From Nitrosomonas sp. (lineage in GTDB: Bacteria; Pseudomonadota; Gammaproteobacteria; Burkholderiales; Nitrosomonadaceae): 64,000 nucleotides of DNA. Below, piece after piece: positions 16,799-33,016 of the stretch. The translations under genes were made by a program, and so were the position numbers. Position 1 is the stretch's first letter, and each line of letters opens with the position of its first letter. The stretch spans positions 310,001 to 374,000 of the forward strand of contig JAMXAG010000001.1 in the NCBI GenBank assembly GCA_024281675.1. Reading direction: 5' to 3'. The notes beneath the pieces were generated by a model, which worked only from the letters and a program-made list of their open reading frames with translations, was not told the DNA's origin and made no database searches.

Positions 16799-16800
16799 GG

Positions 16801-17046
16801 TTATACCTCCACACCTAATACTTTCTTAATCTCACTGACCGGCCATGCAAGGCGGTCATTAATACGGATAGGACGTATCGCACCGTTTTCTAGGCAAGCC
16901 CACGTTCTCAAAGTCTGAGGACGACGATTCAAATAGTGCGCGGCTTCTTCTGTCGTCAGAATCGTGCGCGTGATTTGTTCAAGTGGCGGGAAAATTTGCA
17001 GATTATGCGAAGCTAGTGCTTCTAATGATGCAGGGGTTGTTTTCAT
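16801..17046 (-). CDS. AlpA/excisionase-like helix-turn-helix protein
   Basis: This 81-residue protein has the MerR/AlpA-type winged helix: ILTTEEAAHYLNRRPQTLRTWA, then RPIRINDRLAWPVSEIKKVLGV, the wing. Such proteins activate integrase genes or act as excision/replication switches in P4-like islands. It precedes the primase fragment with 2 bases between them. The 11-bp repeat array lies directly upstream, a likely control or origin region. Confidence 0.8.
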   Translation of the reverse strand: MKTTPASLEALASHNLQIFPPLEQITRTILTTEEAAHYLNRRPQTLRTWACLENGAIRPIRINDRLAWPVSEIKKVLGVEV

Positions 17047-17121
17047 TTTGAACCATCCTTTGCCTTTTAGCGTTATTTAAGATGATTCATCATTGCAGGT
17101 ATGATTTAGTGGTGAAAATCT

Positions 17122-17202
17122 GGCGGAATATCGGCGGGAGAATGGCGGAAATCCGGTGGAAGTTTGCAGAGTTCGCTTAATAGTACGTCGGAATTTTGGC
17201 GG
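17122..17202. repeat. 11-bp periodic GGCGG repeat array (iteron-like)
   Basis: GGCGG/GGTGG blocks start at 17122, 17133, 17144 and 17155, exactly 11 bases apart, each followed by an A-rich half (GGCGGAATATC, GGCGGGAGAAT, GGCGGAAATCC, GGTGGAAGTTT). A fifth GGCGG is at 17198. The spacing of about one helical turn suits binding of a replication initiator or regulator. It sits upstream of the AlpA/primase genes. Confidence 0.6.
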
Positions 17203-18099
17203 TTAGTCTACGTCTCCGGTCAGTAGGTGCTTAGAGGCACGAGAACGTGCCGGCAGGTTATTTGCCAAAGTTCGATATAGACGAGCTTCATCCCATCCTT
17301 CCATCCCCTTGCGAATGAACCACACTCCGGCTTGGTAAGGATTAAACTTTGCTCTAGCTTTTCGGGCGCATATCAATCCTGTTGCTTTGGCCTTATCTGC
17401 CCATTGTTTCCATTTGCCATCAGAAGGAAACATTTTTTCCAGGAATTCCACTGGTACAGGATCAAACAAGGCTGCCAATTTTTCTTCAAAAGCATTTTCG
17501 TCTATCTCAGCCTTGGTTATTGATGCGGCGGATTGCGGCTCTGGTTGTTCGGTTTTCTTGTTCTTCTTTAAAAAATCACATAAGCTTTTTTCCGGAATTA
17601 AAGATTCGCTTCGGTTTGCCTCAAATGGGATGGGAATAGGCTCTTGTGCCAGTGGCTCCAATAAAATATTTAAAGTTGTTGCATCTTGCGGATGGAATGG
17701 AATTATTGAGGATGAATCCATCGGCTCGATTCTTCTGGCATACAACGTTGGAAAAAGTACTTTTTTTGCTGAAGGGTCAGTAAATATGCCATTACTTAAT
17801 TCTTCTATGACCCTTGCATATGAGAATGGTGAGAAACTATCTCTATCTGGATGAATTGCATCTACAGGAATTTTAATGTACCCGCGGAAATTATTTGCTA
17901 TGCAGAAAGATGGCCATAATCCGCCTTCTTCAGTATTTTCTTGTTGAAATTCAAGCGCACCATGAAAATATATACATAAGTCGAGTCCTGATTCTCTGCT
18001 TGCAGCAAACCTTAATACAGCATCAGGTGTGATTTTATCGCTCAGTTCTTCAGTTAAAAATGAAGCGGCTTCATCGAGAGTATAATAGTTTGTCTTCAT
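17203..18099 (-). CDS. Hypothetical island protein
   Basis: The 298-residue protein opens with YTLDEAASFLTEELSDKITPDAVLRFAASRE, a DNA-binding-like helical segment often seen at the start of proteins encoded next to integrases. A middle region is poorly conserved and the C-terminal 90 residues (from about 205) have KWKQWADKAKATGLICARKARAKFNPYQAGVWFI, which I recall in many integrative-element proteins of unknown function. No enzymatic motif is visible. It is transcribed with the other minus-strand genes, 156 bases upstream of the AlpA-like gene. Confidence 0.7.
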   Translation of the reverse strand: MKTNYYTLDEAASFLTEELSDKITPDAVLRFAASRESGLDLCIYFHGALEFQQENTEEGGLWPSFCIANNFRGYIKIPVDAIHPDRDSFSPFSYARVIEELSNGIFTDPSAKKVLFPTLYARRIEPMDSSSIIPFHPQDATTLNILLEPLAQEPIPIPFEANRSESLIPEKSLCDFLKKNKKTEQPEPQSAASITKAEIDENAFEEKLAALFDPVPVEFLEKMFPSDGKWKQWADKAKATGLICARKARAKFNPYQAGVWFIRKGMEGWDEARLYRTLANNLPARSRASKHLLTGDVD

Positions 18100-18249
18100 A
18101 AGTATTTATTCGTCGACGTCTTCAAGAAAACCACTCCAGACCTTGAAGATTTCCGCTTTTCATCCCATCGAGTTAGAGGCTGCCATAGTTGTTCACTTGA
18201 TGATTCCGCTTCTGTCGGATTCCGTCAGGTGGCAGTTATTGCTCGTAAA

Positions 18250-18534
18250 TCAGTGTTGCTTGTTGACCCAATCTCGTAGTGCTTCATTAAGCCTGGTTTG
18301 CCAGCCGTTGCCTGTAGCTTTGAATTGTTCAAGTATTTCAGTATCTATTCGCAGCGTTACTTGTTCTTTTTTTCCGCTTCCCTGTGGCCTTCCTCGCCCC
18401 CGCTTGAATTGACTTAACTCTGCATCAGTTAGCGGTAAATTATCAGGATCGGTAAGCGCGGCTGCTGTAATCTGCGCATCTTCTTCCGGTGAAGGTAGTT
18501 CCAAAATACGACCTGATTTAGTCTTGATTTGCAT
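18250..18534 (-). CDS. brnA: BrnA family antitoxin
   Basis: The 94-residue protein pairs with BrnT. It has a disordered acidic N-terminus and a C-terminal ribbon-helix-helix domain: KKEQVTLRIDTEILEQFKATGNGWQTRLNEALRDWV. This is the usual architecture of BrnA, which neutralises BrnT and represses the operon. Its start overlaps the end of brnT by 17 bases. The RGRGRPQGSGKK stretch is a typical basic linker before the DNA-binding domain. Confidence 0.92.
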   Translation of the reverse strand: MQIKTKSGRILELPSPEEDAQITAAALTDPDNLPLTDAELSQFKRGRGRPQGSGKKEQVTLRIDTEILEQFKATGNGWQTRLNEALRDWVNKQH

Positions 18535-18787
18535 ATTGAATTACCTCTCTATAGTTTGCTTTACGTAAGCTGATTATTCGCCGGTTATCTTCACGGTCGA
18601 CATAAACAGCGCAATATAATCTTTCTCTAATCGGTGCCAAGGCAATCATGCGGGTTTCCCCATAAGTCTGCCGTGTGTCTTGCCATATCAACGCAGCTTC
18701 CCAATCGATAAGCGCTGCATCGGTCAGTGATACGCCATGCTTTTCCTTGTTTATTGCATCCTTAGTGGCATCGCAAATCACTTTCAT
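18518..18787 (-). CDS. brnT: BrnT family toxin
   Basis: The 89-residue protein fits the BrnT ribonuclease toxin (RelE-like fold) family: an N-terminal KDAINKEKHGVSLTDA segment with the conserved KH, WEAALIWQDTR, GETRMIALAPIRERLYCAVYV and the C-terminal RRIISLRKANYREV. BrnT cleaves RNA and inhibits translation. Toxin first, antitoxin second is the normal BrnT-BrnA order. No clear ribosome site precedes the ATG. The pair lies between the integrase and the other island genes and probably stabilises the island. Confidence 0.93.
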   Translation of the reverse strand: MKVICDATKDAINKEKHGVSLTDAALIDWEAALIWQDTRQTYGETRMIALAPIRERLYCAVYVDREDNRRIISLRKANYREVIQYANQD

Positions 18788-18794
18788 ATATTAA

Positions 18795-18845
18795 TGTAGT
18801 TATGTTTATTATAAGAGTCAAGAATTATTTGTAGTTATGTTTATT
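18795..18845. repeat. Direct 16-bp repeat flanking the brnT promoter region
   Basis: TGTAGTTATGTTTATT occurs at 18795-18810 and 18830-18845, 35 bases apart. Between them, on the minus strand, lies TTGACT and TATAAT-like sequence upstream of brnT. The repeats are plausible BrnA operator sites. Confidence 0.55.
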
Positions 18846-20140
18846 TCTTCACAACATGCAAGCCTGATTGTGTTGGTACAAAATTAACCCCAGCTTCTTG
18901 CAATATCCAAGCTTCATACTTACCGTGCCATACTGCTAGCAATTCAAGCGGGCGGTTAATGTAATGACGTTCAGCGGTTGCGCTAGGTGCGTGTCCCATG
19001 ATCTGTGCCACAATACCGCGCGGCATTTCCACCCATTCGGCAAGACTGGCAAAAGTTCGGCGTAAACCATGTAGCGTCAATGGCGGTAATCCAGCCATTT
19101 GCTGCGGTAAGGCTACTAAAAACCCATTGATTGCGGCGTGGTAGGGTTGCCAATAAACTAGCAAAATAGGGCGATAGCGGGATTTTTCGGCCTTCTTCGC
19201 GTATTTTGTCTTTTATCCATATACTGCTCCATCGGAAGTCAACATCTTCCCAGCGTAAACCAGCCAATTCCTCGCGCCTACAACCAAGTAATAGCAATCC
19301 TTGCAAGTAAGCTGAAATGACTTGATTTTCTAACGATCGAACGGCTGCAAACCATGTGGGAAGGTGGGCCCGCTGCATAACATCAAACTGCTTACTTTTT
19401 CGACTTGGTACTTCGTCTCGTAGCTCTTTACTCTCGACTGCTTCAACATCAATAATATTGGTATATTCGGGACGTGACGCACACCAACGCCAGAATGCAC
19501 GAAACATTTCATAACCTTGCCGGGCGTTATTTGCTCGGGTCTCAGCTTCTTGCTTTTGCCATTCTTTAAGTACATCAGCGTTAATATCAATCATGCGCAT
19601 CTGTAGCAGCGGGTACAGTACGCCCGGTTTAGTCAATCCTTTGCCGCGTTGTTTTTCTATCCCGCCTGCCTGAGAAAGATTTTCATGGTCTTTTAAGTGG
19701 CGCGCACCCCATCGCTTACCGCGCTCAATGTGTGAGCGTTGCATTTTGTCTTTTTGGTATTCTAAATAATTTACCCATGCCGTACCCACTGTAGCAGTTT
19801 CGCGGGTTTCCTGCGCTTTTTTGGCAATGGCGGCGGCTGTCTTAGCGGCTGCTTGATCGGCCTTTACTTCGCGTGGGTCATTGCCTTGGTCAATGATGGT
19901 TTGAAGGCGGCGTGCTTCTATTTGGGCATCCCTAATGCTCCATATACTCACATCGCCAATGGTAATTCGCCTTGTTTGCTTGTTAACTTTTGATTGAAAA
20001 ATATAGCGATTGCGACTTGATCCAGGTGTTGCACGTACTGCAAGACCGGGCACTTCATCGCACCATAAAAAGGCTTGTGTTGCATCATCAGGGCATTTGA
20101 AGCCAGTAACCCGCCCGAAAGTTAGTTTTACCTTTGCCAT
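18841..20140 (-). pseudogene. Tyrosine-recombinase integrase of island 1, broken
   Basis: The gene begins at the ATG at 20140 (AAGGGCG before it) with an N-terminal DUF4102-like arm-binding domain, then a SAM-like core and the first catalytic arginine in LLLGCRREELAGLRWEDVD. After WVFSSLTAANG the frame is lost; a second frame supplies LPPLTLHGLRRTFASLAEW and the GH and RHYINRP motifs with the tyrosine, ending at 18841. Compared with relatives, about 20 residues and the frame are missing between the halves, so a small deletion near 19090-19150 has inactivated it. It reads away from attR at 20292. Confidence 0.85.
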
Positions 20141-20291
20141 AATATCGCCCTTAATATTTGTAACCGATTTTGCGGTATACTGACGAATATTAATCAACAC
20201 AACAATCAAGGGTAATGCTATTTAGTATATGATTATTAAGATAATTGTATTTCTAGGGAATGGCAATCAACACAGATAAATACTATTGCAA

Positions 20292-20342
<51 letters not shown>

Positions 20343-20349
20343 ATAAAAT

Positions 20350-20384
20350 AAGCACTTAAAGCGTGATTGCCCAAGTGCTTTTTT
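20350..20384 (+). terminator. Displaced original terminator of tRNA-fMet
   Basis: AAGCACTT and AAGTGCTT form a perfect 8-bp stem followed by six Ts, 8 bases beyond attR. It resembles the terminator of the neighbouring tRNA-Phe and was probably the terminator of the initiator tRNA before the island arrived. Confidence 0.75.
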
Positions 20385-20522
20385 GTTATGGAAATTCATG
20401 TTACCAATATGTCACCGTAACAATTCAGTAATTGAAGTAAAAAAATCTAAAGACCATAGAATCAATATCGATATAAATATTGCGTTTTATGAGAACGCAA
20501 TAGAAGTAATTTCTCTTAATTT

Positions 20523-20740
20523 GAAATGCCGGGAGGGTTCATTTGAGTCCTTCCGGCTATCCCAGCAATTTCTTCGCGTCTTGTTTCTGCTTTCTTGGCT
20601 CTAATTTCTTTAGCCGCTTGTAGTCTCTCCTTTTCACCGCGCGCAACAATTTCCACCTGCTCTTTTTTTGGTAATTCAGCTATTGCTGCTGCATTGTTGC
20701 CAACCTACTAGCAACCATTGCGCGCCGCGCTGTATATACC
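20523..20740 (-). pseudogene. Remnant of a ParB-like nuclease-domain protein
   Basis: The minus strand encodes ARRAMVASRLATM in one frame and then AAAIAELPKKEQVEIVARGEKE plus QAAKEIRAKKAETRREE in another. Both are signature stretches of ParB/Spo0J-type proteins found on plasmids and islands, which normally have about 60 residues between them. The N-terminal nuclease part is absent. It is a dead fragment left over from mobile DNA just outside attR. Confidence 0.65.
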
Positions 20741-20825
20741 TTGTACCTGTAAGTCGATAAGCTACTCCCGGCAACCCCCTTCAATCTCAATTTGAAGTGT
20801 GGCGCTATGGTTCTTTAATGTATTT

Positions 20826-20875
20826 GGGGCTATTCCATCCTAGCATCACTGCTTAGATGGAATAGCCCCTTTTTC
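20826..20875. terminator. Strong bidirectional terminator
   Basis: GGGGCTATTCCATC pairs perfectly with GATGGAATAGCCCC across a 16-base loop, with TTTTT on the plus side. In the minus direction it follows the 5S-like fragment at 20892-20911. Confidence 0.85.
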
Positions 20876-20891
20876 ATTGTAAAAAATCAAT

Positions 20892-20911
20892 GGCCTGGCA
20901 GCGGTCTACTC
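20892..20911 (-). rRNA. Possible 3' tip of a 5S rRNA gene (fragment)
   Basis: The minus strand reads GAGTAGACCGCTGCCAGGCC, which resembles the 3' end of many proteobacterial 5S rRNAs, and is followed by a strong terminator as in rrn operons. The rest of 5S is absent. The match is only 20 bases and judged from memory. Confidence 0.3.
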
Positions 20912-21202
20912 GATACCAAGTGCGAGTTTAGGTGAATCGACTGATTCCCAAGCGATCATTTCCTGAATACCATCACTCAATTTCTAAGCTGAAATATTCT
21001 CCATCATTTCCTATGGTTAAGCAGTAATAAGGCAGGGAATAGTTGCTTTATTTCTTTGATGATTATCTAAATTGAGAATGAATAATGCAAGTATTTAGAT
21101 ATTACAAAAGTATGTGGCAGGTTTCAGGAGGAAAAGCGAAATCAAAATGTTCCCGTTGACTAGGTTGGACCAATGTAAATCGATTCATGGAAATCATCAG
21201 AA
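20912..21202. other. Non-coding leader before the polysaccharide operon
   Basis: I see no gene. This region must hold the promoter for the four-gene operon starting at 21203. A TTGACT (about 21158) could be a -35 box, but no convincing -10 follows at the right distance. AGGAGG-like sequence near 21128 is too far from the start to serve it. Confidence 0.4.
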
Positions 21203-22585
21203 ATGTTGATATTTTTCTCGCCCAATAAAATTGGGCTCCCTGATGCTTATGCGAATTTATATCGCATCCATTACTGCAGCGATTTTTCGGAGTGGGAAGT
21301 CACAAAAACGGTTCCATTAGCATTCATCATTGATGGAAAGGATGCGCAGTACGTCAATAAGATGATCAACAAGATTCGCCGCGACGATGTGGTTTTTGCG
21401 TCACTTTGCTTTGTTACCGAATTACCTGCTGCTTTAGACAACCAATTATTGGATGGGCAATTGCCAGAGCCATCTGCGCTGCAGGAAAAAATCAGTGATG
21501 TTGAAGATCTATCAAAATCATTTAAAAATACTGAAACCTATATTACGCCACAGGGGCGATTGATCAAATACTTATGGTTGCGTACCGGCTTCATTATTCA
21601 ACCGCAACGGGAATGGAAAAATTCCCGGTACTATCGCTATACATTATTAGAAGCATTCAATGAAGATACTGACGATTCCTTTGCCTGGTTAAGAAAATTA
21701 GCTGTTGCCAAAATATTGGAGCCGGTTTCACTTATTGACCGGCAAAGAGAATGTACGCATTGCCGTTCTGCACATTTAAGCTTTATCGATATTTGCCCCA
21801 ATTGTTTCGAAATTGACATTGCGCTGCAACCCTCCTTGCATTGTTTTACCTGTGGCTGTGTCGATGCACAGGATAAGTTCCTACATGCAGGTATGTTGAA
21901 ATGCCCCAAATGCAGCACGCATTTACGTCATATCGGCAGTGACTATGATAGGCCGTTGGAGAATTATCAGTGCCAATCCTGCAATCACGCGTTTAGCGAG
22001 GGCGAAATCCGGGTGCGTTGCGCGGTGTGTGAAAAATCCATGAAACCCGATGAATTGGTCATCAACGAAATTCAACATTGGCAGCTTAGCGATCGGGGTA
22101 GGGTGATTGCATTCCGTGGAGAAGTTTTTGATTTGTCTTCCGGATTCGATCAACTGGACTTTATTTCCAAAGAATTGTTCGTTCATGATTTGGATTGGAT
22201 GATGGTGTTATCCCATCGCTATAAAAATATCAGTTTTAGCTTGTTTGGGATTTATTTTGTCAATCTTGTGGAGCTGGTCGATGAGATAGGTCATACCCGA
22301 TTGCTGCAGGTGATGGAGTCATTTGCACAACGGTTGAGAAATCTATTGCGTATACCCGATCTTTCGGCGAGAACAGCCGAAAATATGCTGTGGTTGTTGT
22401 TGCCGAATACCGATAAGCAGGGGCTTGCTGGTTTTCATAAGCGGATAGAAGCTAGTATGAATCAGCTCATGCTAGAAAGTGATCATAAACTGATTTATCG
22501 GTTTGGTAGTATTAGTTCGGATCAATTATCCGATCAGGAAGATGCAGAATTACTATTGGCAAGGCTTTCCGGTGAGTTGCTCTAA
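21203..22585 (+). CDS. TackOD1-like zinc-ribbon protein with degenerate GGDEF domain
   Basis: The 460-residue cytoplasmic protein has three parts. Residues 1 to about 110 resemble a degenerate receiver-like domain (PLAFIIDGKDAQYVNKMI). Residues 184-277 contain six CxxC pairs (C184 to C276), forming about three zinc ribbons; this cysteine-rich block resembles the TackOD1 output domain. Residues about 325-450 have the GGDEF-domain layout, but the catalytic loop is replaced by TAENML before the WLLLPNTD strand, so no cyclase activity is expected. It could bind cyclic di-GMP or a partner and control the glycosyltransferase encoded by the next gene, which starts directly after its stop. The ribosome site is weak. 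Domain names are by pattern recognition. Confidence 0.75.
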   Translation: MLIFFSPNKIGLPDAYANLYRIHYCSDFSEWEVTKTVPLAFIIDGKDAQYVNKMINKIRRDDVVFASLCFVTELPAALDNQLLDGQLPEPSALQEKISDVEDLSKSFKNTETYITPQGRLIKYLWLRTGFIIQPQREWKNSRYYRYTLLEAFNEDTDDSFAWLRKLAVAKILEPVSLIDRQRECTHCRSAHLSFIDICPNCFEIDIALQPSLHCFTCGCVDAQDKFLHAGMLKCPKCSTHLRHIGSDYDRPLENYQCQSCNHAFSEGEIRVRCAVCEKSMKPDELVINEIQHWQLSDRGRVIAFRGEVFDLSSGFDQLDFISKELFVHDLDWMMVLSHRYKNISFSLFGIYFVNLVELVDEIGHTRLLQVMESFAQRLRNLLRIPDLSARTAENMLWLLLPNTDKQGLAGFHKRIEASMNQLMLESDHKLIYRFGSISSDQLSDQEDAELLLARLSGELL

Positions 22586-23911
22586 ATGGATCCGTTTTTA
22601 GAAGCCTGGTATGTTTTTCGCCTAACGATTGCACAATATAGTGAGCTGCAATACGTGCTCATGCTCATTCCCTTTGTGCTATTCCTGGAGTTACCGCTGT
22701 ACTTGGTCAATTGGTTGGGGGTGTTACGGTATTTGTATCGAAAAAAAAACGATATCCCATGGATTGCTCTTTATTCTCCGCGTGTAACTTGCACGATCAC
22801 CTGTTATTCAGAAGGTAAAGCAGTACAAAACACCGTGCTTTCCTTACTGGAACAAATTTATCCGGGGCACATCGAAATAATTGCTGCGGTTGATGGTGTG
22901 AAAAAAAACCTGCCAACCTATCAGGCACTCAAGGAATTACTACCTTTGGTGAAAAATTACGCCAATCGTTCTTTGACGATTCTTCCCAAGATCCAACGGG
23001 GGGGCAGGGTTTCTTCGCTCAATGCTGGTTTAAGTCGTGCGCAAGGTGAGGTTTTTTTTGCTTTGGATGGTGATACTTCGTTTGATAATCGAATGGTCAG
23101 TAGCGCGGTTTCCCATTTTGGGAATCCTAATACGGTTGCAGTAACTGGTCCGATGCGGGTACGTAATGCCAAAAGTACGCTGGTCACTCGGTTACAAAAC
23201 CTTGAGTACATGCTTACCATGCAAGTGGGTAAGCTCGGTTTTACGCAACTCAGCGCGATTAACAATGTACCTGGTGCGTTTGGTGTTTTCCGCAAATCCT
23301 TCATTCAAAAAATTGGTGGATGGAATACAGGTACTGCTGAAGACCTCGATATGACTTTACGCATCAAGCAATATCATGTGCGTTATCCAGAGCTTAAATT
23401 CGTTTTTGAACCGAATGCTGTTTCTCACACCGACGTGCCTGAAAGTTTATTCGATTTTCTCAAGCAGCGTTTACGTTGGGATGGAGATACTTGGTACATC
23501 TATTCGAATAAGCATAAATCCGGCATTACAGCATCTGTGATGGGTTGGAAGAATTTCATTTTTCTGCTGTGGTACGGTGTTCTATTCCAAGTCATTATGC
23601 CGTTTTCCATCGTCATTTACACTTTCTATATGGCGGTTATGATTCCCACCCATATTTTCTTGCTAAGCATGGTGTTGGTATACGTATTCTATTTCTTATT
23701 GGTTTCCCTGCAATATGTTCTTTATTTGATCCTGCTCTCGGATCGAAAATTGGAAGATTGTCAGGCTTTCTGGGTTTTGCCGGTTTATCCAGGTTTTCAG
23801 TTTATCGGACGTGTCTGGAGTGCAGTGGCCATTCTCAATCAAATGTTCAATAAAGGTCACTTGGATTCTGCCATGGCGCCTCTGTGGGTGCTTAAAAAGG
23901 GCAAGCAATGA
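22586..23911 (+). CDS. Processive GT2 glycosyltransferase (PgaC/BcsA-like)
   Basis: The 441-residue inner-membrane enzyme probably polymerises a sugar nucleotide into an exopolysaccharide. An N-terminal membrane segment (about 20-45) precedes the GT2 domain, with CYSEG, IIAAVDG, the DGDTSF metal site, the base motif GTAEDLDMTLR and the processivity motif QRLRW. Three or four C-terminal membrane helices (about 310-425) form the translocation path. It resembles poly-N-acetylglucosamine synthase PgaC more than cellulose synthase; no PilZ domain is present. Its ATG abuts the stop of the upstream gene and its end overlaps the next by 4 bases, so translation is coupled. Confidence 0.9.
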   Translation: MDPFLEAWYVFRLTIAQYSELQYVLMLIPFVLFLELPLYLVNWLGVLRYLYRKKNDIPWIALYSPRVTCTITCYSEGKAVQNTVLSLLEQIYPGHIEIIAAVDGVKKNLPTYQALKELLPLVKNYANRSLTILPKIQRGGRVSSLNAGLSRAQGEVFFALDGDTSFDNRMVSSAVSHFGNPNTVAVTGPMRVRNAKSTLVTRLQNLEYMLTMQVGKLGFTQLSAINNVPGAFGVFRKSFIQKIGGWNTGTAEDLDMTLRIKQYHVRYPELKFVFEPNAVSHTDVPESLFDFLKQRLRWDGDTWYIYSNKHKSGITASVMGWKNFIFLLWYGVLFQVIMPFSIVIYTFYMAVMIPTHIFLLSMVLVYVFYFLLVSLQYVLYLILLSDRKLEDCQAFWVLPVYPGFQFIGRVWSAVAILNQMFNKGHLDSAMAPLWVLKKGKQ

Positions 23912-26091
23912 AAAGGCTTGCTTTTTTCCTATGGCTCTTGCTAATGCTACTGACTTTCAATGCGATTGCGCAAGTAAAGTTACTGAATGATTTTGGTTCT
24001 AAGCTCGATCAAGCCGCGATTGTGCTGAAAGCACAAGCAGATTTGGAAGCACAGCAATCTAACTTGTTGGCCCAAGAAGCTCAAAGAGGCTGGGAGGTAT
24101 TTGGTGGCATTTCGGTCGGCTATCAAAAAAGTCCTTTTGCTAGAGAGCCTTTCGGAAGATTCTTCGATCCCATGGCGCGTATTGGGCTTCGCTATCCTTT
24201 ACTGGGAAGCGCTGAGAGACAACAACGTGCAGTCAATGATGCGGCTACGCAAGTCAAAATTGAAGACATCCGGTTGGGATGGAGTAGGCGTTTAGCAGCT
24301 TCTTTTCTTGAGGAAAGCTATGCAGCTTACTGGAGTTCGCAAAAGATGTTGGCTTTGAGTGAGGCATACATTCGTTTGCGAGATGAAGGTTTTGAAAATG
24401 TTATCAGCAAGCGACGTGAAGCCGGGTTGTTGTTTATGTCCGACTATTTGGAATTTCTCTCGGCCTTTGATCGCGCCGAACGTACTCGGATTGAATATAG
24501 CAATAACCGGGAGCAAGCGCTGAATCGTTTATCCCATTTAACCAATTCAACTGTTATGCCTTTCGAGGCGGTAAAGCCTGTATTGGCTGAAATTACCAAT
24601 AATTTTACGGCGGATTATGATCAACCGGATTTAAGAATTATTCGGACACAGATCGATAATTTGCAAAATACCCGGGAAACCGAAAAGTGGCAAGGTATTG
24701 AATCGGATGTTTCCACCACGGCTTTTGTTGGACCGGCCATTCCGCATCCTTCTGCGGAAGCGATGCAATACGGTTACGGTGGAGCTGTTGGCGTTAATTT
24801 TAGGATGCCGCTCGAGATTGTAAATTACAGAAAAAGTGAACGTTCTCGGCTGAATAGCCAGCTGATCAGCTTTCGAAGTGAATATACCCGGCGTGAGCAA
24901 GAGTTGCAGCATGAATTTCATACACTCTTTAATAACTACCAGCAAACGGTTCAACAAATCAAGTTCCTGCATACCCGTCTAGCAGCGGCGAAGGAGTTGA
25001 TACGTGAAAGGAATCTACGCGTACGTGTCATGGATGGTGATGTATTGGAAAAATATTTGCAGGCGATTAATACTTATTATCGTATCGCGACAGAATATAT
25101 CGAAGCCGAGTCTGAGCACTGGAAGATACATATCCGTTTGCGTCAATATCTTTCTGACTCACTTCCAGTTGCGGGTACTAAACCAAAAGGTCATGACTCT
25201 GAAGTAGATCTTGTTTCGCTGATTGAGCCATTGAATCAGGCAAAACGGTTTCTCCAAGGAGATAAAAAGAACACTCAGATGCAGCAATCCAATGGTTTTG
25301 TTTTACCGGTGAGCACACAGTCAGTGGATGTGAAGTTTGCGACTTATGTGTGGAATTTTGAGGATTTAATGGATCGTCCGTATTTTTGGCAACAAAAATC
25401 CATTGAAAAAATTGATCGCTTTTTAATTTCGTTAAACACGAAACAAATCTTGAACTTTTCGCTCAACCCAGGAAAGATCAATCAATTTATCGAAAATGCG
25501 CATCGCCATGGAAGGAGAGTGGAGTTGCTACTGGGTGATCCTGGTTGGATTTTGCCGCAATATCGAAGCAAGCTCATAACGATCATCCGTTCACTCACGG
25601 CTATCAATTTTGATGGAATGCATCTGGATATAGAGCCTGATCAGCTTGAAGATGCCTTAACTGGAAAGGCGCGATTAATCGCATTTATCGAAACCATTCG
25701 CCAAGCAACCGCTGTCTCACCTTGGCCGGTCGGGGTCAGTATGCATCACCGTTATTTGCATAACAACTTATCGTTTGATTTATGTGTTGTGTGCAAACTC
25801 AAGCAGGTAGGTATTCGAGAAATCGCCATTATGTATTACTCAATGAACACCAGTGTGATTGTTAAAACACTCAGAGCTGCTATGAATAAACATCCGAGTA
25901 TGTTTTTTAGTCTCGCTCAAAGCTTGGAGCCGGTACTAGGACCAGAAAACAGTTACTTCCATCAATCACCCGCTGTTTTCAACAAGGCAATGCAGCGACT
26001 CGATACGCAGCTTCAAGATCATAATTTTAGTGGAATTGTAATTCAATCTTGGCAAGACTTTGAGAAATATCGCTATGAAAATTCGATTTAA
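23908..26091 (+). CDS. TolC-like outer-membrane channel fused to a TIM-barrel glycosidase-like domain
   Basis: The 727-residue protein has a signal peptide (1-21) and a TolC/outer membrane efflux region (about 25-410) with long coiled-coil helices (KLDQAAIVLKAQADLEAQQ, then YRKSERSRLNSQLISFRSEY). Residues about 455-725 are a separate barrel-like domain with the strand NFDGMHLDIEP: D574 and E576 sit in a DGxxxDxE arrangement, as in GH18-like hydrolases, with the middle Asp replaced by His. I know no common fusion of this kind. It could trim or deacetylate polymer as it leaves the cell. It overlaps the GT2 gene by 4 bases and the adaptor gene by 17 bases. Confidence 0.85.
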   Translation: MKRLAFFLWLLLMLLTFNAIAQVKLLNDFGSKLDQAAIVLKAQADLEAQQSNLLAQEAQRGWEVFGGISVGYQKSPFAREPFGRFFDPMARIGLRYPLLGSAERQQRAVNDAATQVKIEDIRLGWSRRLAASFLEESYAAYWSSQKMLALSEAYIRLRDEGFENVISKRREAGLLFMSDYLEFLSAFDRAERTRIEYSNNREQALNRLSHLTNSTVMPFEAVKPVLAEITNNFTADYDQPDLRIIRTQIDNLQNTRETEKWQGIESDVSTTAFVGPAIPHPSAEAMQYGYGGAVGVNFRMPLEIVNYRKSERSRLNSQLISFRSEYTRREQELQHEFHTLFNNYQQTVQQIKFLHTRLAAAKELIRERNLRVRVMDGDVLEKYLQAINTYYRIATEYIEAESEHWKIHIRLRQYLSDSLPVAGTKPKGHDSEVDLVSLIEPLNQAKRFLQGDKKNTQMQQSNGFVLPVSTQSVDVKFATYVWNFEDLMDRPYFWQQKSIEKIDRFLISLNTKQILNFSLNPGKINQFIENAHRHGRRVELLLGDPGWILPQYRSKLITIIRSLTAINFDGMHLDIEPDQLEDALTGKARLIAFIETIRQATAVSPWPVGVSMHHRYLHNNLSFDLCVVCKLKQVGIREIAIMYYSMNTSVIVKTLRAAMNKHPSMFFSLAQSLEPVLGPENSYFHQSPAVFNKAMQRLDTQLQDHNFSGIVIQSWQDFEKYRYENSI

Positions 26092-27139
26092 TCAGCCTGA
26101 AACTATGAGCCCGGATCATGATCGGGGATTGCTTGTTCAATACAGTCATGCCAAGCGTTTAGGTAAATCCTGGCGTTGGTATTTAATCGTATTGATAGTT
26201 AGTTTACCTTTGCTGTATCTATTAGGGCTGATTCTTTGGGGTGAAATTGCGATTGAAGCGAATGGACGGATCAGAGTCACGAATTTTGTGATGCGCGCGC
26301 CAATTGATGGCCATGTTCAGCAGATATTGGTGCGGCCGTTACAAAGTGTGGTGGAAGGTGAACCATTAGCGCAATTGGCGAATACATTGTTGCAAGAACA
26401 GCATGACCGCATACAAATAGAAGTTTCATCGTTAACAAAAGAAAAGCAAAAACTACTGGCTCAAGCCGGACAATCCAAATTGGCCTCCCTGCAACTATTG
26501 AAATTCTCCCAAGAACAAAAGGATTTCTTGCACAAACGCTTGCGCCAATACGAATCCTTATTTCAACAAGGTGCCGCAACACAGGCGGAAATAGCGACGA
26601 TTCGCAGTCAATATCAAGCAGCCTTGGAAAATTCAGCGCTATTACAAAAGGTACAGTACAGTGCACAAAACTTAACGCCAGAAATGCTTCAGATCACCAA
26701 TCATATGAATCAGAGGATGTCTGAGTTTGACAATATTCGCAATCAAGTAGAACAGCTAAAATTTGTTGCACCCACTGCAGGAATGGTGACTGAAATATTT
26801 GTACAACCAGGGGAATATCTAGGGAAAGGTCAACCGCTGATGGAAATTATTTTTCCGAATACGGTCTATATTGATGCATTTATTCCGCCGAAATACCAGG
26901 ACTATGCTGTCGTTGGACAGGTTGCTCAAGTCAAATTTCCTAATGGCGAAATCACCAAGGCAAAAATTATTGCTGTTCCCGGCATCGTACAAAAATCCAC
27001 TTCTGATGAAAATGGCCCGCTTGAAATTGTGCGTTCGGCGATCCTTGCACAGATGGAATTTATTGATCCGGTCAATAATCGTTTGATGAATGGAATGCCG
27101 GTTGAAATCTATTTCAGAGGTATCATGGGTGAATATTGA
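26075..27139 (+). CDS. HlyD-family periplasmic adaptor
   Basis: This membrane-fusion protein starts at the ATG at 26075 inside the end of the preceding gene. It has one N-terminal membrane helix (about 33-55), a lipoyl half (VMRAPIDGHVQQILVRPLQSVVEGEPLAQL), a coiled-coil hairpin (about 105-215), the second lipoyl half (FVAPTAGMVTEIFVQPGEYLGKG) and a beta-barrel domain. It would link the inner-membrane glycosyltransferase with the TolC-like channel. No ABC transporter or RND pump gene is present, so export energy would come from polymer synthesis. This matches the idea of a compact polysaccharide exporter. Confidence 0.9.
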   Translation: MKIRFNQPETMSPDHDRGLLVQYSHAKRLGKSWRWYLIVLIVSLPLLYLLGLILWGEIAIEANGRIRVTNFVMRAPIDGHVQQILVRPLQSVVEGEPLAQLANTLLQEQHDRIQIEVSSLTKEKQKLLAQAGQSKLASLQLLKFSQEQKDFLHKRLRQYESLFQQGAATQAEIATIRSQYQAALENSALLQKVQYSAQNLTPEMLQITNHMNQRMSEFDNIRNQVEQLKFVAPTAGMVTEIFVQPGEYLGKGQPLMEIIFPNTVYIDAFIPPKYQDYAVVGQVAQVKFPNGEITKAKIIAVPGIVQKSTSDENGPLEIVRSAILAQMEFIDPVNNRLMNGMPVEIYFRGIMGEY

Positions 27140-27311
27140 TATCATTAAAACCTACCGCGAACCAGCGCGATTCAAATCTACTAAGTGCATACCGACCATC
27201 TCAACATCCCACGGGTAACCGTTCGAATACTAGCTACGCCTTTTTTCCAGCCAGAGCAGCATTTCACAAGCCATCGTAACCAGGATTAACAGGACACTAC
27301 TCTAGTGCAAT
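27140..27311. other. Short gap between convergent genes
   Basis: The stretch separates the adaptor gene from the convergent TonB-dependent receptor gene. I see no gene and no convincing terminator. Confidence 0.4.
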
Positions 27312-29378
27312 TTAGAGACGCCATTCGACACCAGCATAAACCCCTCTGGGTATATAGGTTGGTATTGATGGAATGAAATCAGATTGAGATTCCTGATGCT
27401 GCTGGCTCAACAAATTCTGACCAACAACAAAGACTTCGATGTTTCTAAGTGGTTTCCAGGCAAGCTTGGCATCCATCGTGACATAATTGGGAATATTGTA
27501 AAATGTCAAGCCACTGACATAACGCAACCAGAGATTGTGTTGCAATCTCTCTGAAAAATCATAGTTGGAACGCAAAGAGAATTGTTGATGCGGATTGGCT
27601 TTATCCGCACCACCCGAGGTTGAGTCCAATTGTTTGAATTCGACACTAGAATTCATATGAATATTCAGATAGGAATAGCTACCCTGCAGACGCCATTTTT
27701 CATATGGCCGCCAATCGACTGAGGCTTCCGCGCCGTAGGAATGTGCGGAAGCTTGATTGCCAAAAAAGATAGGTAAAATCATGTGAGGATGAATGCCAGA
27801 ACCTGGCGTCATCTGGCCGAATCTGAAGTCCCGCAATTGACTATAATCGTTAAAGAAACCAGCAACGTCAATCGATGCATTCGATGCAAATTGATGGCGA
27901 TAACCCAATTCATAAGCAATTAATTTCTCGGAGTTAAAGCGATTATTGCCTTGCACCACCATCATGATCGGAATTGGTGATGTGGGCATGCCTGGGAATG
28001 ATTGCATCACTCTACCCGCAATCGTGACGTCATTCTCACCGCGGGAAGGTATGCGTACTGCACGTGATACTGACATCCAAAGTGAGTTCTGTTCATTGGG
28101 AGTCCACATCAAACGCCCGCTCGGTTGTACCTCCAAACCGGTGAAATCATTATGATCAATCCTTGTACCCAGTGACAAACGCAATTGATCAGGTAGTAAA
28201 GTGATCTCATCGCGAACAAATGCACTGATATTGTGATTGGTTTTCTGGTGTGGGGTAAAAACTGTAAGCTCTGTTGCTGGCACATTATTGTTATACAAAC
28301 GATAATTAATGCCCCAAGTCACATCGTGATGCGTGAGAAGGGGCAAACGGTGCTGAAAATCCACATCAAAGCTTTCGGCGTATTTTGTCCATGGTGCTAG
28401 CTGGTTATGTACCCGGTCGTAATAGGTTTGTAGCATGATGGAAGATTTATCCGAAAAATTCCGATCCCAGCGCAAACGGATGTTGCCACCTATTTCCTTG
28501 GCATCTGCAATTTCGAGTCGTGTGAAAGGCGCTGCTAATGAAGGTTGCAGTAGACTATCACCGATCCGATTAATGAAAATATCACCCTGCACCGTCAGTT
28601 GATCAATTCCACGGCTATGATCCAATCTAAAACCTGCCCTGACAGACTGCCAATCATCCTTCACATTCGCCCCCGATAACGAACTCATAGGATCCCTGCT
28701 GAATGCTTTGGCATAAATGCGAAAGGGTGTTTCTTCGTTAAACTTGCCACCATAACGCACGCCCACAAAGCCACGTTCGAAACTACCACCACCACTTGTT
28801 AGCAAAATACCTTGTGTATCGGCAGCTTTCTTGGTGATGATATTGATCACTCCATTGACAGCGTTAGCCCCCCACACAGTTGCACCGGGGCCGCGAATTA
28901 CTTCGATGCGCTCGATATCTTCCATGAAAGTATCTTGCTGACTCCATATCACCCCAGAAAACAGCGGTGTATAAACGCTGCGCCCATCCATCAGGACTTG
29001 TAATTTGTTAGCAAAACGTCCATTAAAGCCACGCACACTGATTGACCATTTGTCCGTACCTAAGCGAGCGACTTCGACACCTGGGGCCATACGTAAAGCC
29101 TCAGGAATACTGGTTGCACCCGAGCGGCGAATATCATCTTGTGTGATCACAAAAATTGCGGAAGATACCTCGGAGAGTTTCTGTGAGCGCCTTGATACAG
29201 AAGTTACTTCAATTTTCATCAACTCCTCGATACCAAGTGCTAACAAATCATTATCTTTAGGTTTAGTGCCACTCACAGTTTTACTCTCAGCCACTGCAAG
29301 ATTTGCTAGGCAGCAAAAAATAATGAAGAGCAAATACTTCAGATGCAATAGCGTTTTTGAGCAGCGCAATAAGATCAC
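27312..29378 (-). CDS. TonB-dependent outer-membrane receptor
   Basis: The 688-residue protein has a signal peptide (about 1-30), a plug domain (about 55-165) with SVSRRSQKLSEVSSAIFVIT, RSGATSIPEALRMAPGVEVAR, the VLMDGRSVYTPLF box and ERIEVIRGPGATVWGANAVNG, and then a beta-barrel ending in the aromatic-rich strand GVYAGVEWRL. It lies in the outer membrane and imports a large ligand with TonB-ExbBD. Receptors of this kind (BtuB/FhuE-like) take up siderophores, cobalamin or other chelates; the ligand is not readable. A TonB box near the mature N-terminus is not obvious. It is convergent with the polysaccharide operon. Confidence 0.92.
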   Translation of the reverse strand: MILLRCSKTLLHLKYLLFIIFCCLANLAVAESKTVSGTKPKDNDLLALGIEELMKIEVTSVSRRSQKLSEVSSAIFVITQDDIRRSGATSIPEALRMAPGVEVARLGTDKWSISVRGFNGRFANKLQVLMDGRSVYTPLFSGVIWSQQDTFMEDIERIEVIRGPGATVWGANAVNGVINIITKKAADTQGILLTSGGGSFERGFVGVRYGGKFNEETPFRIYAKAFSRDPMSSLSGANVKDDWQSVRAGFRLDHSRGIDQLTVQGDIFINRIGDSLLQPSLAAPFTRLEIADAKEIGGNIRLRWDRNFSDKSSIMLQTYYDRVHNQLAPWTKYAESFDVDFQHRLPLLTHHDVTWGINYRLYNNNVPATELTVFTPHQKTNHNISAFVRDEITLLPDQLRLSLGTRIDHNDFTGLEVQPSGRLMWTPNEQNSLWMSVSRAVRIPSRGENDVTIAGRVMQSFPGMPTSPIPIMMVVQGNNRFNSEKLIAYELGYRHQFASNASIDVAGFFNDYSQLRDFRFGQMTPGSGIHPHMILPIFFGNQASAHSYGAEASVDWRPYEKWRLQGSYSYLNIHMNSSVEFKQLDSTSGGADKANPHQQFSLRSNYDFSERLQHNLWLRYVSGLTFYNIPNYVTMDAKLAWKPLRNIEVFVVGQNLLSQQHQESQSDFIPSIPTYIPRGVYAGVEWRL

Positions 29379-29827
29379 GAGTAATTAGTATTTAGAAAGC
29401 AATGTCGCAGTTCGGGAATTGTTAATAGTAAAACGAATAAGACCACAGCTTATTCATTAGCATTATGGTAATGAATAAAAGGAACAATTAAAGCTCGGAT
29501 TACAGTGAATTTCACCCTTTTTTTAGCAAAAGCAGACAAGAATTTCTCGATCACAATCGCTCCGATATTTCCGGAGATAAAATGATTTGAAAGGAGGGAG
29601 GGATGAAGAACTAGATTAGTTATTCAGCGGAAAGTACGAGAACGAGTAGTATGATTGATATTTGAGCAATAAAAGGCGCATATCACAATAGTCGACGATC
29701 AAATCGACCGCATCGAAAATTGAATGCATAGCGGAGGTGTTACGAACATGAAAGGTGGATAGAAACCGATTAGGAATTCGTGAGAGCATGTCGTTATCGG
29801 GGCGGGCTCAGCAACTGGAACAGGAAA
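29379..29827. other. Intergenic region upstream of the TonB receptor
   Basis: No gene is supported. ATTCATTA/TAATGAAT (about 29452-29476) forms a short inverted repeat, a possible operator. A scrambled stretch from about 29690 may be the worn 5' end of the transposase remnant that follows. Confidence 0.4.
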
Positions 29828-30170
29828 ATCGGAAATGTTATGTGTTGTAGTAGCCCAGACTTAATCTGGCAGCCGAGCCTGCCAGGTGATGGGTTTTTCC
29901 TGCGATACTTTTTATCGTTACCAGGGTGCCATGGAAGCAGGCGGCGTTGAGGTCCTTATTGATGCTAACCGGCGCAAGCCCACAACAGCAAGAATTGCGT
30001 CGAAGAGGCGACGGAAGCAGAGCACAGCACAGCACAGCTTCTGCTCTGGAGCGGTCGGCTTTTGGCCAGGTTCGTGTTTCTAACGAACCGCACAAACGAG
30101 GGATCTTTGTTTCCCCATCCAGTGTTCGTTGCCAGTATTTGCCTGTGGCGTTAATCAACAAATATAGTCC
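29828..30170 (+). mobile_element. Degenerate transposase remnant (HTH-type, IS481-like)
   Basis: The plus strand reads ACQVMGFSCDTFYRYQGAME then a frameshift and SAFGQVRVSNEPHKRGIFVSP. These are fragments of a transposase family whose intact members have FSRDTFYRYQ and QPAFGQVR-type sequences. Several frameshifts and no open frame longer than 94 codons show it is dead. Element ends are not identified. Confidence 0.65.
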
Positions 30171-30397
30171 GGCCGGCCACCATTACCAATCTTGTAAGGT
30201 TTATCCTTAGCTTTGCCTTGACGAATTGCTACATCGTAAACATTTGATGGCATCAAATCTGTTTGGTAGTTTAACTACCAACAGAAATACCATTAAAATG
30301 TTGGTGTGTACAGATACTTGATACAGTCTGAAATTATCAATTCCAATTAGAGCTATTTAATTCAAGGAATCTGATACTATTTGAAACTTGAATTTGG
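30171..30397. other. Non-coding stretch with a perfect palindrome
   Basis: TTGGTAGTTTAACTACCAA near 30263-30281 is a perfect palindrome, possibly an operator. No gene is supported. Confidence 0.4.
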
Positions 30398-30417
30398 GAC
30401 GGCGGGAATCGAACCCG
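30398..30417 (-). repeat. att site copy, distal end of island 2
   Basis: GACGGCGGGAATCGAACCCG is identical to 36850-36869 in the T-arm/acceptor part of ssrA. It stands alone here, with no tmRNA body. Confidence 0.88.
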
Positions 30418-30606
30418 TGTTCATTTCAAAAAAATCAGTCATTTGTCGTTTACCTGTGCATATTTTGTGTCAAACTATGGAATCTATTAGTACTATTAGT
30501 AATATTGTGAGTAATTAAGTCTAAATATATTTACTAAATTTTTCATTTTAATTACTACCTCAGTATCCACCAAAAGTCTGTTAATTAATCGTGCTATGAT
30601 GATGTT

Positions 30607-32175
30607 TTATGAATATCCCTTATTCGAGCAATATACCCTTAATGCTCTATGAATAATCACGCCTTGACTCTTGTTAAAATCATAGATATCTGTGCTTGGT
30701 TCTCTATGCTTAAAGTACACAAATCCATTATCGCCCATACCACCAATTAAAGACCGATTAAACATATCTTCTAATAAGTCAGCAGCGGATACATCATGAC
30801 AATTAGACTGAATAATACTCATTGCATCATTATACGGTAAGAACTTAGCACTTGGGTCGCGAAGCTTAGAACTTATTTGACCAAATGCGTTAAAAATCAT
30901 TGTTATTTGATCGGAAGTATAGAAACAGGAAAATTCATTTTTTAATTCATTTACTACTTCTTCGCAATAACGTCCAATGAGATGATTGATGTCTTGCTTT
31001 GATAATGGGAGTGCATATTTGTGCGTTGAAAGTGGCTTAAAAAAAAGAAGCAGGTCTCTAGGTCTAAAAAGCGTGTGATCAAGCACATATTTAAAGCTGC
31101 TCTTTAAGCTATCTTCAGCACTTTTAAATGGCTCCTCTACAAGTGATCGCCAAGGATCAGCATTATCTACGACCAGATTTTCTGCATTGAAGGCGTATCT
31201 TATTCTGTCATTCAAAAATTTTCTTATATTAAGTGAGACTTCCTCATCTTTTAGATGGTATTCATCTTGGTACCAATTGATATTGACTGAATAAGAAGAA
31301 AATATCTTTGCTGTATCAGAAGCCATAGAGGAAACGGATTTACTTATATCATCCCTGAGTAGTATTACAACTTTGGATGCTAAATGATTTTTTGCAAAAA
31401 AATCATTATTAAGCTCTTTTGACACTCTAAGTAGAGATATAAGAGAATCTACTGTTGATTTGTCTTTCGCGTCAAAAGTTATATCAAGGTCATCAAAAAA
31501 TAAAATATAACTATTCTCATTATTCTTTTCTTCAGGGCTTGTCAATACTCTTAAAATTACTTCTTTTAAGTGAGGTATAAGCTTATAAAATGGAGCTCGT
31601 TCCTGTCGGATTTCCAAGTTTTTATTCATGCCACTTGAAAAAAATCGTTTTAAATAATTGATCTCTACATTAAATCCTTGTCTTTTTATAAGCTCTTTAG
31701 TTTCTGACTCTTTAATATCAATATACCCTGAGTTTTTATTTAAAAAATATTTTAATAAATTGTAATCTTTGTTACCAGCAACAGCTTGATTATCTGAGAA
31801 CAACTTAAGTATATTTGTGAGAATAAGCCATTTGTAAAGATTTTCTTTTTCAAGCTCATGCCCGGCTTGTAATCCAAATTGAATTATTTGTTCAAGATTG
31901 GCTTCGCCTTGTTTAATAAATTTAGCAAAAATATTTGCTTCTGATTTCGCGAGCATACAAACATGTTCAGCAAAAGCACTCTTTCCCGATCCTTTCCTGC
32001 CGACAATTATAAACTTTTCGTGTGCCAAGCCTTCCATGAGACCCGAATAATCTTTATAAACCTTTTCTAAAGGCATTCGAGAATTAGGCAGTGCTTCAGC
32101 TTCTGCTTCTGGTGACCCAAGAAAAATTGAATCATTATTCTTTCGGGGTTTTTTAATAAATTTATCAAATACCAT
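30607..32175 (-). CDS. Lone P-loop ATPase, Sll1717-like
   Basis: The 522-residue protein has an N-terminal FLGSPEAEAE-type segment, Walker A GRKGSGKS near residues 59-66, and Walker B ILFFDDLDITFD in the middle. The shape (short leader, P-loop, long helical C-terminal part ending in a winged-helix-like region) fits the Sll1717 family of STAND/AAA-like ATPases. The P-loop is complete, so it is probably active. It is cargo of island 2 and more AT-rich than neighbours, which points to transfer. Such lone ATPases on islands are often candidates for phage defence; this is inference only. GAGG lies 8 bases before the ATG. Confidence 0.75.
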   Translation of the reverse strand: MVFDKFIKKPRKNNDSIFLGSPEAEAEALPNSRMPLEKVYKDYSGLMEGLAHEKFIIVGRKGSGKSAFAEHVCMLAKSEANIFAKFIKQGEANLEQIIQFGLQAGHELEKENLYKWLILTNILKLFSDNQAVAGNKDYNLLKYFLNKNSGYIDIKESETKELIKRQGFNVEINYLKRFFSSGMNKNLEIRQERAPFYKLIPHLKEVILRVLTSPEEKNNENSYILFFDDLDITFDAKDKSTVDSLISLLRVSKELNNDFFAKNHLASKVVILLRDDISKSVSSMASDTAKIFSSYSVNINWYQDEYHLKDEEVSLNIRKFLNDRIRYAFNAENLVVDNADPWRSLVEEPFKSAEDSLKSSFKYVLDHTLFRPRDLLLFFKPLSTHKYALPLSKQDINHLIGRYCEEVVNELKNEFSCFYTSDQITMIFNAFGQISSKLRDPSAKFLPYNDAMSIIQSNCHDVSAADLLEDMFNRSLIGGMGDNGFVYFKHREPSTDIYDFNKSQGVIIHRALRVYCSNKGYS

Positions 32176-32284
32176 TATCCAAGCCTCATTTTTGCTTCTG
32201 AGAATAAATTAACTCATAATTAAATACGACAATGGGGTTACCTCTTACAATCACGCCTAATGTGAAAACCTAAATATGATCTGT
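32176..32284. other. Gap between ATPase and HigA genes
   Basis: A short AT-rich stretch that probably holds the ATPase promoter. No gene is visible. Confidence 0.4.
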
Positions 32285-32659: not shown

Positions 32660-32677
32660 TTCAGTTTAATCCTAGTA

Positions 32678-32980: not shown

Positions 32981-33016
32981 GGGCGAAATATTAGTCCCAT
33001 TATGGGACTTTGGCAA

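Follow-up and report, generated by a model that had tools for sequence, protein, structure and literature searches.

Can a sugar polymer leave the cell through the adaptor and channel of an efflux-type apparatus? This question is raised by four plus-strand genes, designated A to D, at positions 21203 to 27139 of a 64,000-nucleotide stretch (the window) of a Nitrosomonas sp. genome of 2.81 Mb (contig JAMXAG010000001.1, positions 310,001 to 374,000). The genes encode, in this order, a protein with a TackOD1 domain and a degenerate GGDEF domain, a processive-type family 2 glycosyltransferase (GT2), a TolC-like channel with a TIM-barrel hydrolase-like domain, and a HlyD adaptor. We consider it probable that the operon specifies an Mxd-type, synthase-dependent exopolysaccharide system that is gated by cyclic di-GMP (c-di-GMP) and has a HlyD-TolC exit rather than a tetratricopeptide repeat (TPR) protein and porin. 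The genes and the features within them are as follows.

21203..22585, plus strand: gene A (mxdA-like), with a receiver-like N-terminal alpha/beta domain (read from the model), a zinc-ribbon-like TackOD1 domain, and a degenerate GGDEF domain
21536..22087, plus strand: cysteine-rich TackOD1 domain of A, residues 112 to 295 (Pfam, E = 1.2e-62)
22349..22360, plus strand: RxxD motif of the c-di-GMP inhibitory site of A, RIPD, residues 383 to 386
22376..22390, plus strand: position of the lost GGDEF signature of A, AENML, residues 392 to 396
22586..23911, plus strand: gene B (mxdB-like), membrane GT2 synthase (Pfam Glyco_trans_2_3, E = 6.5e-17)
23908..26091, plus strand: gene C, TolC-like channel plus hydrolase-like domain, with a hydrophobic N-terminal segment at residues 5 to 23 (Pfam OEP, E = 5.3e-23)
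25294..26073, plus strand: C-terminal TIM-barrel domain of C, residues 463 to 722, hydrolase-like and akin by fold to glycoside hydrolase family 18 (GH18)
25612..25635, plus strand: motif DGMHLDIE of C, residues 569 to 576
26075..27139, plus strand: gene D (mxdC-like), HlyD-type periplasmic adaptor that has a single membrane segment near its N terminus (Pfam HlyD_3, E = 7.8e-15)

Open reading frame (ORF) coordinates bear out the original prediction, made from the sequence of the window, that the four genes form one unit. A and B abut with 0 bases between them, B and C overlap by 4 bases, and C and D overlap by 17 bases when the ATG at 26075 is used as the start of D rather than an upstream TTG at 26060. 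The GT2, HlyD adaptor, TolC-like channel, and regulator that had been predicted were likewise recovered with Pfam. Among the Pfam matches (E ≤ 1) of the four operon proteins and four neighboring proteins there was, as predicted, no ATP-binding cassette (ABC) or resistance-nodulation-division (RND) pump, nor any TPR or PilZ domain; no search for pga, pel, bcs, or alg genes was made elsewhere in the genome. One 522-amino-acid neighbor gave a weak ABC_tran match under the family cutoff.

In the mechanism that we propose, c-di-GMP from other GGDEF proteins of the host would bind the RxxD motif of A, a dead cyclase serving as a receptor like PelD, and c-di-GMP-bound A would switch on the membrane synthase B. 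B would polymerize a sugar, probably an N-acetylhexosamine, and thread the polymer across the inner membrane. D would form a periplasmic bridge to the TolC-like channel in C, where the polymer would exit, and the GH18-like domain at the C terminus of the channel may trim or clear polymer at the channel mouth. Of the synthase-dependent exporter with a tripartite-like path that was originally predicted, the unit of synthase, adaptor, channel, and regulator was found; the path itself is retained as a proposal.

Relation to the Shewanella mxd operon

The operon had been put forward as a new, little-studied system, a view that was abandoned because A-B-D is the mxdABC core of Shewanella oneidensis MR-1, for which biofilm phenotypes have been published. 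Published mxd primers served to locate the S. oneidensis mxd locus. Of 129 genomes, 1 contained the genome-derived part of primer Pmxd-fw-300 (PMC3691769) without a mismatch, and in it the genome-derived portions of five Pmxd primers sit just upstream of an A-type ORF. The genus of the primer-matched genome comprises two genomes with several OmcA/MtrC-type cytochrome matches; TIGR03507 matched in 45 genomes of a 369-genome sample of the class (the class sample), with no clear Shewanella among them.

MxdA, MxdB, and MxdC are homologous, in the same order, to A (31% identity over 390 columns, E = 3e-64), B (44% identity, E = 6e-130), and D (26% identity, E = 4e-24), and MxdA also has a degenerate GGDEF domain in which RxxD is kept. 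In contrast, there is no TolC-hydrolase in the Shewanella operon. Its fourth ORF (122 amino acids; MxdD by position only) has no similarity to C, and the possibility that C is MxdD was rejected for that reason. S. oneidensis mxdB mutants stay as a monolayer, and mxdA and mxdB mutants fail to aggregate; MxdC is described as resembling an efflux pump and MxdD as resembling nothing known (PMC3691769).

The operon appears to be a variant of the Mxd kind in which a known core is joined to a new module with a putative role in export and trimming. Three observations are new here: the inhibitory site (I-site) is kept in most A proteins while the GGDEF signature is lost in all, a TolC-hydrolase fusion is present that is missing from the Shewanella operon, and the hydrolase domain keeps L-D-x-E in 100/100 rows and has a fold closest to that of chitinases. 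The fusion was named nowhere in the results of the literature search, which leaves room for its being in print. These relatives suggest how the Mxd polysaccharide may exit and how MxdA may act: through a HlyD-TolC conduit with a tethered hydrolase, and as an I-site receptor.

The original prediction had staked its case on conserved synteny, and the neighborhood is kept in the 13 close-type same-genus relatives that were opened and in 76 to 78 of 80 named loci. The 13 relatives have A-B-C-D, with B and C split by frame breaks in one (G008); a fourteenth opened same-genus relative (G004) is of a distant type with the order D-A-B. The named loci are the best 80 from a named scan with an alignment of A, which yielded at least 591 stretches, at least 588 of them confirmed, and they therefore lean to close relatives of A. 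By tblastn, these loci have a GT2 beside A in 78/80 cases, the hydrolase domain in 76/80, HlyD in 76/80, and TolC in 57/80. Among the named loci without the hydrolase and D, L085, L119, and L121 stop at contig ends and L123 is a real exception.

Predicted polymer synthesis and the putative route of export

The catalytic residues of B (D103, D161, D163, D253, Q294, R297, and W298), among them those of the motifs D161xD163 and QRLRW at 294 to 298, are kept in 111/111 unique B, as is R295. For the unique sets, rows with identical last 200 residues were merged, which reduced A from 129 to 117 and B from 123 to 111. The Pfam GT2 match and the catalytic residues together place B with inner-membrane polysaccharide synthases, and the protein has one N-terminal hydrophobic window and about three overlapping C-terminal ones. 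Among NCBIfam families, B scores best against the poly-N-acetylglucosamine (PNAG) synthase PgaC/IcaA (E = 2.1e-39), at 135.6 bits versus an equivalog cutoff of 422.3 bits; membership in a pga/PNAG operon was rejected on the basis of the missed cutoff. B also matches NodC (E = 2.7e-17, NCBIfam) and the chitin-synthase family (E = 4.1e-10, Pfam). Its sole PDB sequence match at E ≤ 0.001, the family 2 transferase 6yv7 (E = 8e-9, two chains), is uninformative on the polymer.

A possible clue to the donor sugar comes from a minority of loci. A galE-like epimerase gene lies directly after D in 8/129 loci (L084, L091, L114, L124, L129, L138, L140, and L146), which come from Pseudomonas, Nevskiaceae, and one alphaproteobacterium; the gene is annotated galE in L146, and its start is unsure in L084. 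Together with the chitinase-like domain of C, these epimerases hint at an N-acetylhexosamine or galactose-type polymer. Two points tell against the proposed system: the epimerase is not found after D in the other 121 of the 129 loci, though some of these stretches end early, and the portions of the Mxd literature consulted name no polymer. In one further locus (L050), a GH16 gene directly follows D.

It is unlikely that B instead makes short oligosaccharides or a NodC-like sugar-lipid that D and C export as small-molecule efflux, with no matrix polymer. The matches to NodC and the chitin-synthase family would fit such products, and small molecules and proteins are the classical cargo of HlyD-TolC pairs. 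However, the PgaC/IcaA match is far stronger than the NodC match, a conserved hydrolase-like domain lies beside the synthase, and an mxd homologue is required for aggregation and three-dimensional biofilm (PMC3691769).

The structural model of C was confident (predicted local distance difference test score [pLDDT], 87.9) and matched first TolC-family channels (fold ranks 1 to 39) and then TIM barrels, in accord with the channel-hydrolase fusion that had been predicted. There was no credible Pfam match in the last ~270 residues of C. The first fold matches other than TolC were two chitinases (E = 3.7e-4 and 4.9e-4), the second of which has a truncated title and is presumed by us to be a chitinase. 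W482, W547, L573, D574, E576, and M642 are kept in 100/100 hydrolase-domain rows (not deduplicated). The domain consensus has FxxLHLDLE (DG in many rows) and MIY (MxY) at the positions of the GH18 motifs. In GH18 chitinases these motifs are DGxDxDxE and MxYD; compared with them, a His replaces one Asp and no Asp follows the Tyr.

In the model-based search, the fold of the domain most resembles chitinases, and hydrolase activity is predicted. Several results temper this assignment. Other TIM barrels (isocitrate lyase, methylenetetrahydrofolate reductase, and GH10) score near the chitinases in the fold search. The GH18 likeness is below sequence significance, with a fungal chitinase at E = 0.21 in the profile search, aligned over the LHLDLE and MIY motifs. 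By profile, the domain matches best in the PDB to 10yv, a structure with the title putative GH97 (E = 1.3e-7); no GH or other Pfam family matched the domain credibly.

The hydrolase domain is part of an ORF of at least 400 amino acids in 67 of the 76 named loci that contain it and a stand-alone protein of 277 to 314 amino acids in the other 9; the high frequency of the TolC-hydrolase fusion holds for the 80 named loci, which lean to close relatives of A. Pseudomonas umsongensis has the stand-alone form. Because stand-alone copies exist, some with what by eye is a signal-peptide- or lipoprotein-like start, the hydrolase domain is a separable and probably periplasmic module. The C terminus of TolC is periplasmic.

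Still less likely than export of oligosaccharides is the possibility that D and C serve an unlinked ABC, major facilitator superfamily, or RND pump, with the synthase merely sharing the operon and the polymer exiting elsewhere. Eight other TolC-type proteins in the host genome score above the family cutoff, so such pumps are likely present, and in NCBIfam D matched the EmrA, RND, and type I adaptor families. In the face of this, D lies beside the synthase in 76/80 named loci, in 12/12 loci of the order of genome G199 (Enterobacterales, as inferred from SeqA), and to either side of the deepest split in the tree of B. Furthermore, in the class-sample, same-genus, and G199-order loci the genes are close together, with no extra same-strand ORF of pump size within the unit. 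One finding does weigh against the full proposed path: a supported clade of 16 B has no adjacent C, so a dedicated channel is not essential.

A HlyD-TolC path for the polymer would set the operon apart from better-known systems. Synthase-dependent exopolysaccharide systems are described as comprising a synthase, a c-di-GMP receptor, a periplasmic enzyme, and an outer membrane exit, with a TPR and an outer membrane pore (PMC7112194); the terms mxd, HlyD, and TolC are absent from the main text of that paper. Like the alginate, cellulose, PNAG, and Pel systems, the operon has a membrane synthase, and a c-di-GMP receptor, a periplasmic enzyme, and an outer membrane exit are predicted. Unlike them, it has HlyD and a TolC-type channel with a fused hydrolase in place of the TPR and outer membrane pore (PMC7112194). 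The role proposed for the channel-fused domain is filled elsewhere by separate proteins (PgaB, PelA, and BcsZ). In the PNAG system, PgaB becomes more active as a hydrolase when it contacts the export protein PgaA (PMC9384988); PgaA and PgaB are separate, whereas channel and hydrolase form one chain here.

The closest conceptual precedent, by analogy, is the XcsA-XcsB-TolC route proposed for cyanobacterial cellulose secretion, which also combines a GT2, a HlyD-like adaptor, a TolC-like channel, and a glucanase, in a model stated to lack experimental proof (PMC12430437). It differs in that the Thermosynechococcus vulcanus genes are scattered, XcsA carries PilZ, and XcsC is a separate endoglucanase (PMC12430437), whereas here there is one operon with a separate regulator and with channel and hydrolase in one protein. 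The rhizobial BgsBA system for mixed-linkage beta-glucan likewise pairs a GT2 with a HlyD-domain partner and is activated by c-di-GMP, but c-di-GMP binds the synthase itself, and the operon is described as bicistronic and thus without a receptor gene or channel (PMC9495663). If the proposed path is correct, TolC-type channels, known for drugs and proteins, would also pass growing polysaccharide, and the unproven XcsAB-TolC model would gain a genetically compact counterpart. Ammonia oxidizers gain a concrete candidate for a biofilm matrix.

Gene A as a predicted c-di-GMP receptor

The original prediction of a regulator with TackOD1 and degenerate GGDEF domains was confirmed in its domains, and its role can be sharpened to that of a predicted c-di-GMP receptor. 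The GGDEF match of A is weak (Pfam, E = 9.6e-6), and the model of A (pLDDT, 88.1) matched GGDEF domains in the fold search, as did the profile search; on our own reading of the model, the N-terminal part has the beta/alpha order of a receiver. The Arg and Asp of RxxD are present in 109/117 unique A, and a GGDEF-like signature in 0/117. Because the I-site is kept while GGDEF is lost, A looks like a c-di-GMP receptor rather than an active cyclase. The public annotation of two plasmid relatives as active diguanylate cyclases was ruled out by the GGDEF/GGEEF signature count of 0/117.

In alignments of 27 and 24 A, no residue outside TackOD1 is invariant other than R383, D386, and the first Met; R59 was also invariant in a first alignment of 20 rows. 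Within TackOD1, C187, C198, C201, C257, C260, C273, and C276 are invariant in 117/117 unique A, and C184, H213, C217, C234, and C237 are kept in 116/117. TackOD1 was found in 0/14 control genomes. The host genome has 17 further GGDEF matches, all of which outscore that of A, so c-di-GMP is likely made in the host.

There are precedents for such a receptor in PelD and BcsE, dead GGDEF domains that bind c-di-GMP at the inhibitory site (PMC8461298), and A resembles PelD in its logic. MxdA is described as a c-di-GMP effector and, citing its reference 40, as a c-di-GMP-binding protein (PMC7666153). Other evidence runs counter to a receptor role. The effect of MxdA on c-di-GMP levels is also described as solely indirect (PMC3691769, PMC3409153), and RxxD is not intact in 8/117 unique A. 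These departures are Ala in place of Arg in three Nevskia/Solimonas rows (L084, L085, and L129), Gly in a Nevskiaceae row (L091), Lys in L170, and, on our own reading, short, split, or frame-shifted rows in L053, L062, and L146.

The least likely of the alternatives, that A regulates independently of c-di-GMP through its zinc-ribbon output and a receiver partner with the GGDEF remnant as a scaffold, could draw on these departures, on the description of TackOD1 in archaeal response regulators as an output domain whose function is unknown (PMC5847659), and on the binding of CheY3 to MxdA (PMC7666153), but it is at odds with R383 and D386 as the sole invariants outside TackOD1 in 27 A proteins whose GGDEF drifted freely and with the reported binding of c-di-GMP by MxdA (PMC7666153).

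Two loci (L047, 6624 to 8015, and L123) have a TackOD1-GGDEF protein without a synthase, near a PhoR-like histidine kinase gene, which may reflect use as an orphan receptor.

Distribution, history, and surroundings of the operon

Within the genus, B (E ≤ 1e-30) was found in 15 of the 61 genomes searched, all 15 among the 37 same-genus genomes. The nearest named relatives of A are in Nitrosomonas, with 96% identity in a Nitrosomonas metagenome-assembled genome (MAG) among the matches listed, and B is 98% identical in one relative genome. In the class sample, A occurs in 17/369 genomes, including that of the window. The other 16 genomes provided 17 opened loci, of which 15 have a GT2 near A, one of the 15 (L062) by a partial match only; no GT2 was found near A in L047 and L063. 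The order A-B-C-D is present in 3/17 of these loci, and C is ahead of A in 6/17 (L062, with shifted frames, among these). There is no C in 12/12 loci of the order of G199.

Hosts of the named loci include Nitrosomonas, Pseudomonas, Stutzerimonas, Thioalkalivibrio, Nevskiaceae, Marinobacter, and Vreelandella and, as MAGs only, desulfobacterial groups, a Planctomycetota bin, and Synechococcus; all carriers outside the Pseudomonadota in the 80 named loci are metagenome assembled by title.

A quick tree of B was built from 94/111 unique B, after removal of 1 unlabeled row and of 16 near-copies that were picked by judgment and not on measured identity; 60 of its rows are of the fused form. B of the window and MxdB fall within one 74-row branch (Shimodaira-Hasegawa-like approximate likelihood ratio test [SH-aLRT] support, 96). 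Besides S. oneidensis, the clade of 16 B without C (SH-aLRT, 99) comprises 12 loci from the order of G199 and three rows from plasmids, of which one is alphaproteobacterial; its neighbor in the tree is a mostly fused Pseudomonas-Halomonadaceae clade. Stand-alone hydrolases appear in two places in the tree, in Pseudomonas and in Synechococcus. In a distant clade the genes are ordered C-D-A-B; an alignment of C from this clade with C from A-B-C-D loci extends over 383 columns (E = 3.6e-22) and takes in most of the hydrolase together with part of the channel.

Fused forms occur to either side of the deepest split of B, which suggests an old fusion that was lost in the line of Shewanella. Two features of the tree speak against an old fusion: the root is by midpoint only, and four C-less lineages branch early. 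Evenly balanced, in our judgment, is the broader proposal of a distinct and widespread class in which GT2 synthases gated by stand-alone I-site c-di-GMP receptors would export their polymer via HlyD and a TolC-type trimer with a polymer-cleaving enzyme on each subunit, the fusion being ancient and Shewanella mxd a reduced form that lost the channel.

Two Synechococcus MAGs (L128 and L141) fall in the Pseudomonas-Halomonadaceae part of the tree, as the result of either interphylum transfer or binning error; their hydrolase is stand-alone and is lipoprotein-like in L141. The 29-kb Aeromonas caviae plasmid pKAM329_3 (L144; NZ_AP024139.1, 4617 to 10439), typed as mobilizable, carries a whole A-B-C-D operon with a B nearly identical to that of Stutzerimonas degradans (branches of about 0.003), which points to recent horizontal transfer. 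In a Nitrosomonas ureae MAG (L026/L078), B and C are each frame broken, through decay or assembly errors.

Near the operon there was no c-di-GMP riboswitch or other known RNA with an Rfam match at the gathering score within 15000 to 34000, and a promoter and terminator scan was uninformative, with 11 promoter-like sites versus 17.6 in shuffled sequences. A tyrosine-integrase-like gene (18983 to 20209; Pfam) lies 1 kb upstream of the operon, and the near-identical relative G024 (L014) has differently sized ORFs in its place. The same window has a transfer-messenger RNA (tmRNA) gene at 36843 to 37203; tmRNA genes are common integration sites. The 522-amino-acid neighbor is a P-loop NTPase (30607 to 32175) with weak Pfam matches in a region where G+C content falls to 0.32, and it may be a mobile or defense gene. 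A TonB-dependent receptor gene (27312 to 29378) is convergent with the operon, and G024 has an ORF of equal length (688 amino acids) in the same place.

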